Positions 38,468 through 40,593 of a DNA stretch of 64,000 nt are shown piece by piece. The notes beneath the pieces were generated by a model, which saw only the letters and a program-made list of their open reading frames with translations, searched no databases and was not told where the DNA came from. The translations under genes and the position numbers were made by a program. Each line of letters starts with the position of its first letter. Within the stretch, counting starts at the first letter, position 1. Source of the stretch: Chloroflexota bacterium (GTDB lineage: Bacteria; Chloroflexota; Dehalococcoidia; CAUJGQ01); contig CAUJGQ010000094.1 in the NCBI GenBank assembly GCA_963170165.1, positions 1 to 64,000 of the forward strand, read 5' to 3'.

Positions 38468-39139
38468 ATGAACGGCTCGCACGATGTGGGCGGGATGCAT
38501 GGTTTTGGGCCGGTGACCATCGACCCGGACGAGCCACTGTTCCGGGAACCGTGGGAGCGCACCGTCTTCGGCATGATCCGGGCAACCCTGCCGCGCTTCT
38601 ACAACATTGACGAGTTTCGCCACGCAATCGAGCGGATGGGCAACATTGACTATCTCGACTCGACCTACTACGAGCATTGGCTAGCATGCCTGGAGATCTT
38701 GCTGGTCGAAAAGGGAGTCGTGGCGGCTGGGGAGCTCGACCGGCGTGCGCGCCTCAGCGCCGCCGGCGTCTTGACGGTTACGGCGCTGGCAGCGCAGGCC
38801 GCGGTCACGGTCAGCCATCCCGGCGGTATCTCGTACTGGCGTGAGGGGACGGAGCCCCGTTTTGCCGTCGGTGACGCCGTGCGAGCGCGCAACCTGCATC
38901 CGCCCGGCCACACCCGTCTGCCCAGGTACGCCCGCGGCAAGCGTGGCACCATCGCCGCCGTACATGGTGTCATGGTCTTCCCAGACAGCAATGCCCACGG
39001 CCAGGGCGAGCAGTCACAGGCCGTCTACAGCGTGCGCTTCGAGTCCGCGGAGCTGTGGGGTGAGTCTGCTGATGGACGCGGCGCCGTGTACCTCGATGTG
39101 TGGGACAGCTATCTGAACCCGGCCGGGGAGCAACCGTGA
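38468..39139 (+). CDS. nthB: Nitrile hydratase beta subunit
   Basis: 223 residues. Hydrates nitriles to amides together with the alpha subunit. N terminus MNGSHDVGGMHGFGPV is the family hallmark, followed by EPLFREPWERTVFGM, YYEHWLACLE and the C-terminal beta domain FAVGDAVRARN...GHTRLPRYARGKRGTI. ATG 38468 after GGGAGG. Gene order beta-alpha-activator is that of the Rhodococcus cobalt enzymes. The stop and the alpha start share one base (TGATG). Confidence 0.95.
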   Translation: MNGSHDVGGMHGFGPVTIDPDEPLFREPWERTVFGMIRATLPRFYNIDEFRHAIERMGNIDYLDSTYYEHWLACLEILLVEKGVVAAGELDRRARLSAAGVLTVTALAAQAAVTVSHPGGISYWREGTEPRFAVGDAVRARNLHPPGHTRLPRYARGKRGTIAAVHGVMVFPDSNAHGQGEQSQAVYSVRFESAELWGESADGRGAVYLDVWDSYLNPAGEQP

Positions 39140-39738
39140 TGGGCAAGAATCACCCCAACGTTGACCCATATGTCGTCTCCCGCGTACGCGCGCTCGAGTC
39201 GCTGCTATTGGAGCAGGGCATCCTCGCGCCGGACACCGTCGACCGCGTGGTTGCCCGCTATGAGGCAGACACTGGACCGCTGGCGGGAGCACGCGCGGTA
39301 GCCAGGGCTTGGCTCAACCCGGACTATAAAGCGCTGCTGCTATCGGACTCTCATCAAGCACTCAAGGCGGTGGGAGTCGAAAGCTATGACGTGCTGCGCG
39401 TCAAGGAGAACACCCCGACGGTGCACAACCTGGTGGTGTGCACGCTGTGCTCCTGCTACCCGTGGCCGGTGCTGGGCCTGCCACCTACCTGGTACAAGAT
39501 GCCCGCCTATCGCTCTCGGGCCGTGATCGAGCCACGGGCGGTGCTCGCGGAATTTGGTCTCGAGATCGGGCCGGAGCGCGAGGTGCGCGTGTGGGATAGT
39601 TCGGCAGAGCTGCGCTACATGGTGATGCCACAGCAGCCGGCCGGGACCGAGGGGATGACCGAAGAGCAGTTGACGGCGCTGATTCCGCGGGACGCACTGA
39701 TCGGCGTGGCCGAGGTTCGTGCGCCGGCGCTGGTCTAG
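39139..39738 (+). CDS. nthA: Nitrile hydratase alpha subunit, cobalt type
   Basis: 199 residues carrying the metal site VCTLCSCY with C101, C104, S105 and C106. Thr between the first two Cys marks the non-corrin cobalt enzymes (iron enzymes have Ser). The two later Cys are normally oxidised to sulfinate and sulfenate after metal insertion. Flanking KENTPTVHNLVV and YPWPVLGLPPTWYK, and the later YRSRAVIEPRAVL, are typical. Thiocyanate hydrolase gamma is a related option, but that enzyme has split beta parts. The next gene is the activator fusion; no amidase gene is near. Confidence 0.95.
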   Translation: MGKNHPNVDPYVVSRVRALESLLLEQGILAPDTVDRVVARYEADTGPLAGARAVARAWLNPDYKALLLSDSHQALKAVGVESYDVLRVKENTPTVHNLVVCTLCSCYPWPVLGLPPTWYKMPAYRSRAVIEPRAVLAEFGLEIGPEREVRVWDSSAELRYMVMPQQPAGTEGMTEEQLTALIPRDALIGVAEVRAPALV

Positions 39739-39747
39739 CGAACCGCG

Positions 39748-40593
39748 ATGAACGAGCGCCGCCGCAACATCGTCGTTCGGCCCGATGGCCGCCTCGTCAA
39801 CGTCGCGCGGTTTCGCGGCCAGTTATTTGTCTGCGCCGACGGTTGCTGCTGTGGCCGCACTGAAGACGGCTTCCCGCCGGTGCCGCGCGACCTCTTCCAT
39901 AGCGAGTGGGAGCGGCGACGGCTGCGCAACCAGGTGCACCTGACCATTGGTGGCTGCCTCGGTCCGTGCGCCCTCGCCAATGTTGTGCTGCTGCTGCTCG
40001 ATGGCCGGTCGCTATGGTTCCACACCATGCACGCACCCGAACGCATCACCGCGCTGTATGACTTCATCGAGGCGTCGCTGGACGTTGCTGAGCCGCTGGC
40101 TCTTCCTCGGTCCCTCGAGCCGTTCCTGTTCACCGCTGCACGCTGGCAGCCGCGGCCGGACGGCCAGCAGGTTGACGACCATCGTCCTCGCCAGCGGCAC
40201 GGACAGCAATCGCAGCCTGAGGACGATCAGCCGCACACCTGCGATCCGACGGATGACCGCGGCGCCGTCGATGCGGCCGTCTCCATGATGACTGGCGCAG
40301 TGGCCATGCCCCGGCGCAATGGTGAACTGGTGTTTGCAGCGCCCTGGCAGGGCCGCGCCTTTGGTATGGCAGTCGCCCTGCATGAGCAGGGGCTGTACGA
40401 GTGGGAGACGTTCCGCGATGCGCTGATCCGCCGCATTGCCCAGGCGGAGCAGTTGCCAGCGATGTTCGACTATTACGACTGCTGGGTCGCGGCATTTGAG
40501 GATGTGTTGGCCGTAGCCGGCCTGCTCAGCACCGCCGCCATCGAAGAACGCGCGTTCGAATTCGAGTTCGGCGAGCGGGAAGACATCTTCTAA
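39748..40593 (+). CDS. Ferredoxin-like cysteine domain fused to nitrile hydratase activator
   Basis: 281 residues in three parts. Residues 1-125: thioredoxin-like [2Fe-2S]-type domain with C29, C33-C35 (CADGCCCGRTEDG) and C70/C74 (GGCLGPCALANVVL). I recall the same CCCGRT...GCLGPC pattern in small ferredoxin-like proteins encoded beside cobalt chelatase genes. Residues about 125-190: Gln/His/Asp-rich linker. Residues about 195-281: nitrile hydratase accessory domain, related to the beta subunit N terminus (APWQGRAFGMAVALHEQGLYEW, YYDCWVAAFEDVL). Nine bases after the alpha gene. Likely delivers or inserts cobalt, perhaps with a redox step, during subunit exchange; this is inference. Confidence 0.85.
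   Translation: MNERRRNIVVRPDGRLVNVARFRGQLFVCADGCCCGRTEDGFPPVPRDLFHSEWERRRLRNQVHLTIGGCLGPCALANVVLLLLDGRSLWFHTMHAPERITALYDFIEASLDVAEPLALPRSLEPFLFTAARWQPRPDGQQVDDHRPRQRHGQQSQPEDDQPHTCDPTDDRGAVDAAVSMMTGAVAMPRRNGELVFAAPWQGRAFGMAVALHEQGLYEWETFRDALIRRIAQAEQLPAMFDYYDCWVAAFEDVLAVAGLLSTAAIEERAFEFEFGEREDIF

Follow-up and report, generated by a model that had tools for sequence, protein, structure and literature searches.

A CobN-type ferredoxin domain fused to the activator of a cobalt-type nitrile hydratase

The window, the whole stretch of 64,000 nucleotides of Chloroflexota DNA that was analysed, contains a nitrile hydratase operon that is of the cobalt type by its gene order (beta, alpha, activator) and by the motif VCTLCSC in its alpha subunit. 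The operon and its third gene comprise the following features.

38468 to 39139, plus strand: nitrile hydratase beta subunit gene (223 aa; PF21006 and PF02211; TIGR03888 233.9 bits, cut-off 152.2)
39139 to 39738, plus strand: nitrile hydratase alpha subunit gene (199 aa; PF02979, E 2.7e-78; TIGR01323 262.1 bits, cut-off 249.85)
39439 to 39456, plus strand: alpha metal-site motif CTLCSC (VCTLCSC, cobalt type), from the sequence
39748 to 40593, plus strand: fused ferredoxin-activator gene (281 aa, 31.9 kDa)
39748 to 40152, plus strand: predicted thioredoxin-like ferredoxin domain of the CobN N-terminal type, residues 1-135, from profile, fold and tree
39832 to 39852, plus strand: cysteines C29, C33, C34 and C35, invariant in relatives
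39955 to 39969, plus strand: cysteines C70 and C74 (CLGPC), invariant in relatives
40165 to 40308, plus strand: linker, residues 140-187, predicted to be disordered from about residue 155
40240 to 40242, plus strand: linker cysteine C165, the single linker cysteine in 10 of 11 fused proteins
40303 to 40590, plus strand: activator domain resembling the beta N-terminus, residues 186-281, with the TIGR03889 match at 196-265

The start of the beta gene (ATG at 38468, MNGSHDVGG) was picked from homologues. The fused gene is one intact reading frame from an ATG at 39748 to a stop codon at 40591-40593, and begins after a gap of 9 bases from the alpha gene, on the same strand as beta and alpha. This confirmed its placement, in the initial annotation, as the third gene of a cobalt nitrile hydratase operon directly 3' of the two subunit genes. 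The cysteines at 29, 33-35, 70 and 74 are also where that annotation put them; two more are present, C165 in the linker and C245.

The C-terminal half of the protein matched the nitrile hydratase activator model nitrile_acc (TIGR03889; E 4e-20, 71.6 bits, curated cut-off 46) and also NHase_beta_N (PF21006), in keeping with the weak similarity of the activator half to the N-terminus of the nitrile hydratase beta subunit. The C-terminus is thus a standard activator domain, as had been claimed, with a mass by itself of about 11.5 kDa. A Pfam search of the fused protein gave no match to the G3E GTPase family PF02492. Activators of Fe-type hydratases (Nha3, COG0523 GTPases) are likewise larger proteins and contain the cysteine motif CXCC, for which metal binding has been proposed (PMC7193024, PMC2770081), but they possess a GTPase domain and the fused protein has none, which ruled out this identity.

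Activators have been assigned roles as metallochaperones and in cysteine oxidation (PMC3511329; PMC7193024). Those published for cobalt enzymes are described as smaller than 17 kDa and as lacking any known motif for metal binding (PMC3511329), in agreement with the earlier remark that such activators are usually small. Like NhlE, NhhG and P14K (TIGR03889), the fused protein passes the TIGR03889 cut-off, is encoded directly 3' of beta-alpha and shows similarity to the beta N-terminus; gene position and weak beta similarity are also two of the traits given for self-subunit swapping chaperones (PMC3511329). In contrast to these proteins, it is 31.9 kDa and carries a Cys-rich domain with ferredoxin-type cysteines. 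Judged from its sequence, the fused form therefore breaks both published statements on cobalt activators, that on size and that on the lack of a metal-binding motif.

No Pfam family was found to cover the N-terminal domain, and a Vts1-like Pfam match on the N-terminus fell below the cut-off. As a single sequence, residues 1-135 gave weak matches to thioredoxin-like ferredoxins (5abr, E 0.01), and a profile of 30 relatives matched 5abr with an E value of 1.6e-5. AlphaFold2 modelled these residues with a mean pLDDT of 90.9 and a pTM of 0.83, and the best Foldseek matches of the model were Aquifex thioredoxin-like [2Fe-2S] ferredoxins, with the thioredoxin-like ferredoxin of Rhodobacter capsulatus, FeSI and NuoE/HydB-type domains just below. 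Profile match, predicted structure and Foldseek together back the ferredoxin-like N-terminus of the initial annotation, and on the modelled structure residues 1-135 have a thioredoxin-like [2Fe-2S]-type ferredoxin fold.

The likeness to the known members of this fold (Aquifex Fd, FeSI, NuoE/HydB) extends to a TM-score of 0.5-0.55 by query length and to four aligned cysteines, C29, C34, C70 and C74, which fall on the ferredoxin cysteines of HydB in the profile alignment. The window domain differs from them in its low identity (about 20%), its metal-traffic contexts and two further cysteines, C33 and C35, which are extra relative to the HydB pattern; all six cysteines are invariant in the relatives of alignments A3 and A4. 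It also lies far under the cut-offs of the NCBIfam ferredoxin models, which gave 20.6 bits against a cut-off of 195 and a weak match in 30/30 members. This ferredoxin-type domain deserves a family of its own.

The initial annotation had described the linker between the two halves as Gln/His-rich. This is true of the window copy, with 3 His and 7 Gln in 48 residues, but is peculiar to it: the other fused copies have 0-2 His and 1-4 Gln, and the composition is not conserved among them. The idea of a Gln/His-rich metal-buffering tail was dropped for this reason. Matches of residues 118-167 to capsid proteins in the PDB were attributed to the low-complexity linker. The cysteine noted in ten of the fused proteins is the only one in an otherwise unconserved linker, and stands in a His-x-Cys arrangement in 4; by comparison, the activator parts contain 3 cysteines over 1033 residues, and the corresponding stretch of CobN a single one over 1400. 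The full-length model (pTM 0.54) has low confidence in the linker, so that the relative placement of the two domains in it is unusable.

We sampled 400 genomes of the window's phylum, 393 of its class and 95 of the Rokubacterial phylum; other phyla were covered only thinly, by one pattern scan of genome contigs. Eleven intact fused genes were found, the one in the window and ten in other genomes, four of the same class (G671, G590, G511, G734) and six of the Rokubacterial phylum (G464, G469, G459, G460, G400, G401). At a twelfth locus, in G623, the two parts are on separate contigs: one contig ends in the ferredoxin, which follows beta-alpha, and another begins with the activator. No fusion was found in the plasmid collection. 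The ten other intact copies are about 53-61% identical to the window copy in the genome searches (51% for G734), and all six cysteines are kept in the eleven intact copies. Since the fusion recurs intact in ten other genomes and split in one, it is neither chance nor the sequencing error joining two genes that had been raised as a possible refutation. In all 12 loci it directly follows beta-alpha and the alpha motif is VCTLCSC; this is the consistent fused class beside cobalt-type alpha genes that the initial annotation had sought. Apart from beta-alpha, no neighbour is conserved across the 12 loci, and they share no transporter, regulator, reductase or partner gene.

Single-domain activators are likewise present in both groups, and the fusion is found in a minority of activators; in the loci examined around single-domain activators there was no separate ferredoxin gene nearby. 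Disrupted ferredoxin domains of the same family were also seen, one interrupted by a frame change (L141, in G630) and one split by about 1.5 kb (G110:C1:2578431-2580425).

Within the window's phylum, most close relatives of the ferredoxin domain are the N-termini of reading frames of about 1400-1575 aa. Two such frames were checked and are CobN (PF02514, >1300 bits), with the N-terminal domain outside the PF02514 model. Plasmid copies in Deinococcus, Granulicella and Spirosoma also sit in genes annotated as CobN, and on the Granulicella plasmid CbtB and CbtA genes precede the ferredoxin-CobN gene. The CobN N-terminal domain belongs to the same family as the window copy, with the same six cysteines and 44-60% identity over the rows aligned; it differs in being attached to a chelatase, whereas the window copy is attached to a hydratase activator and the fused protein lacks the PF02514 chelatase domain. 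The initial annotation had linked the cysteine pattern to small proteins beside cobalt chelatase genes. The link to the cobalt chelatase holds, and more strongly than proposed, but the relatives found here are mostly fused to CobN rather than beside it. The N-terminal part does match cobalt-linked ferredoxins, namely the CobN N-terminal domains and a short homologue beside CbtA and cobalamin genes.

Phylogenetic trees were built for both halves, each from a short alignment. In the ferredoxin tree the fused halves and four stand-alone Rokubacterial copies form a clade (support 99/97) nested among the CobN domains. A fused-only clade without the stand-alone Rokubacterial copies is absent from the best tree and is not rejected (p-AU 0.113). 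The activator halves of the fused proteins form one clade (support 90/87). The stand-alone Rokubacterial ferredoxins within the fused clade (L064-L067, L096) lie away from hydratase genes, and that of L096 is frame-broken. The simplest reading is that a CobN-type domain became joined to an activator once, and that the fused gene then moved between phyla and sometimes lost its activator half; this sequence of events is unproved.

A PF02514 search did not detect CobN in the window's draft genome, nor did searches of the draft genomes detect it in 11 of the 12 genomes with the fusion; G511 is a genome with both ferredoxin-CobN and the fusion. Service of the domain to CobN in trans is therefore unlikely, and where CobN is undetected the ferredoxin domain would serve the hydratase.

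Other relatives of the domain occur in several contexts. The window's own genome contains, next to a heavy-metal-type P-type ATPase, a paralogue in which the ferredoxin is fused to YHS (L006:7801-8430, contig C46). Stand-alone copies at L042:4866-5432 and L043:5108-5545 are clustered with two CobW-type GTPases, together in L042 with a Fur-family regulator. At L100:5133-5573 a shorter homologue, which shares the CCC and CLGPC motifs, is placed between CbtA and genes for precorrin-8X methylmutase (CbiC), a tetrapyrrole methylase and a CobB-type protein. Most of the readable contexts thus concern metal traffic, the Rokubacterial stand-alone copies being an exception.

We favour, at about even confidence and from sequence comparison, the reading that the fused protein is a two-domain cobalt hydratase activator whose metal-handling ferredoxin module would supply Co(II), and perhaps electrons, to the complex of activator and alpha subunit. 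By homology, the C-terminal half, a relative of the beta N-terminus, should act as a self-subunit swapping chaperone and hold the free alpha subunit. The six invariant cysteines may bind a [2Fe-2S] cluster, Co(II) or both, and the ferredoxin domain on its flexible tether would deliver Co(II), and possibly reducing power as well, to the alpha subunit while the activator holds it, ahead of the swap into the enzyme. Several observations favour this reading: the mostly metal-traffic contexts of the relatives (CbtA/CbtB, CobW-type GTPases with Fur, P-type ATPase); the presence of the same domain at the front of CobN, which is the other large protein that inserts cobalt, and the nesting of the fused ferredoxins among the CobN domains; the failure to detect CobN in 11 of the 12 fusion genomes; the position of all 12 fusion loci directly after cobalt-type beta-alpha genes with nothing else conserved; the six invariant cysteines; and the metallochaperone function credited to activators (PMC3511329).

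The distribution of CobW-family proteins bears on metal supply in both directions. A strong COG0523 (CobW) match is missing in 6 of 16 ferredoxin-CobN genomes (G193, G302, G088, G511, G550, G526), which is what a domain able to assume the supply of cobalt would predict; these six have no COG0523-type match or only matches with E about 1e-6 to 1e-7, which are taken to be MeaB-like. The ten ferredoxin-CobN loci checked showed no G3E motif. Against metal handling, the other ten of the 16 genomes do have strong CobW-family matches. Most cobalt hydratase activators, including relatives in the same two groups, work without a ferredoxin domain, and the Rokubacteria keep stand-alone descendants away from hydratase genes.

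The spacing C29-x4-C34-x35-C70-x3-C74 also counts against metal handling, as it aligns with ordinary [2Fe-2S] ligands and alone would indicate electron transfer. This is the ground of the main rival, possible though on balance doubtful, in which the domain is a purely redox [2Fe-2S] module that handles electrons or thiols during maturation and never cobalt itself. Such a module might keep the CTLCSC cysteines of the alpha subunit reduced for the entry of Co(II), or steer cysteine oxidation and the conversion of Co(II) to Co(III). The canonical placement of the four cysteines and the closest solved folds, which are electron-transfer ferredoxins, are consistent with it, as are reports that activators are necessary for oxidation of the metal-site cysteines and that a reductant is required to insert cobalt in vitro (PMC3511329; PMC7193024). 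However, a redox role leaves the extra invariant cysteines C33 and C35 unexplained, the relatives adjoin metal transporters, GTPases and the chelatase rather than oxidoreductases, and the surroundings of the fusion contain no conserved reductase gene.

We regard as quite improbable a docking or sensing domain that passes neither metal nor electrons, and that would position the activator on a transporter or GTPase or sense iron or oxygen through a labile cluster. The flexible tether, independent folding and occurrence of the domain in several unrelated architectures would fit such a role, but none of the six cysteines varies in any architecture, and the fusion has no conserved partner gene next to it. 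Least credible is a misjoined, decaying or functionless N-terminal extension: the fusion occurs in a minority of activators and in some Rokubacteria the ferredoxin lies away from the hydratase genes, in one case with a broken frame, but this reading is largely refuted by the recurrence of eleven intact copies with six cysteines kept and beta-alpha linkage in 12/12 loci.

In the literature searched, outside which most subscription papers lie, we found a ferredoxin domain described neither for CobN nor for hydratase activators; automatic annotations of the fused form may exist unremarked. The metal-handling reading can be extended to a general, hitherto undescribed cobalt-transfer module, a built-in metallochaperone for both CobN (also in lineages that lack a clear CobW) and hydratase activators, with a ferredoxin fold in which the CCC motif would carry Co(II) and not only a cluster. 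We consider this broader proposal unlikely; if true, the insertion of cobalt into corrin and non-corrin targets would share a single chemistry of delivery.

The handover of cobalt to non-corrin enzymes is poorly understood. Here the same Cys-rich domain is found on two types of cobalt-inserting protein, the B12 chelatase and a hydratase activator, which opens its function to experiment. The finding gives context to the CobN N-terminal domain, which lacks a Pfam family, and may shed light on how cobalt is supplied where a genome encodes CobN without a clear CobW.
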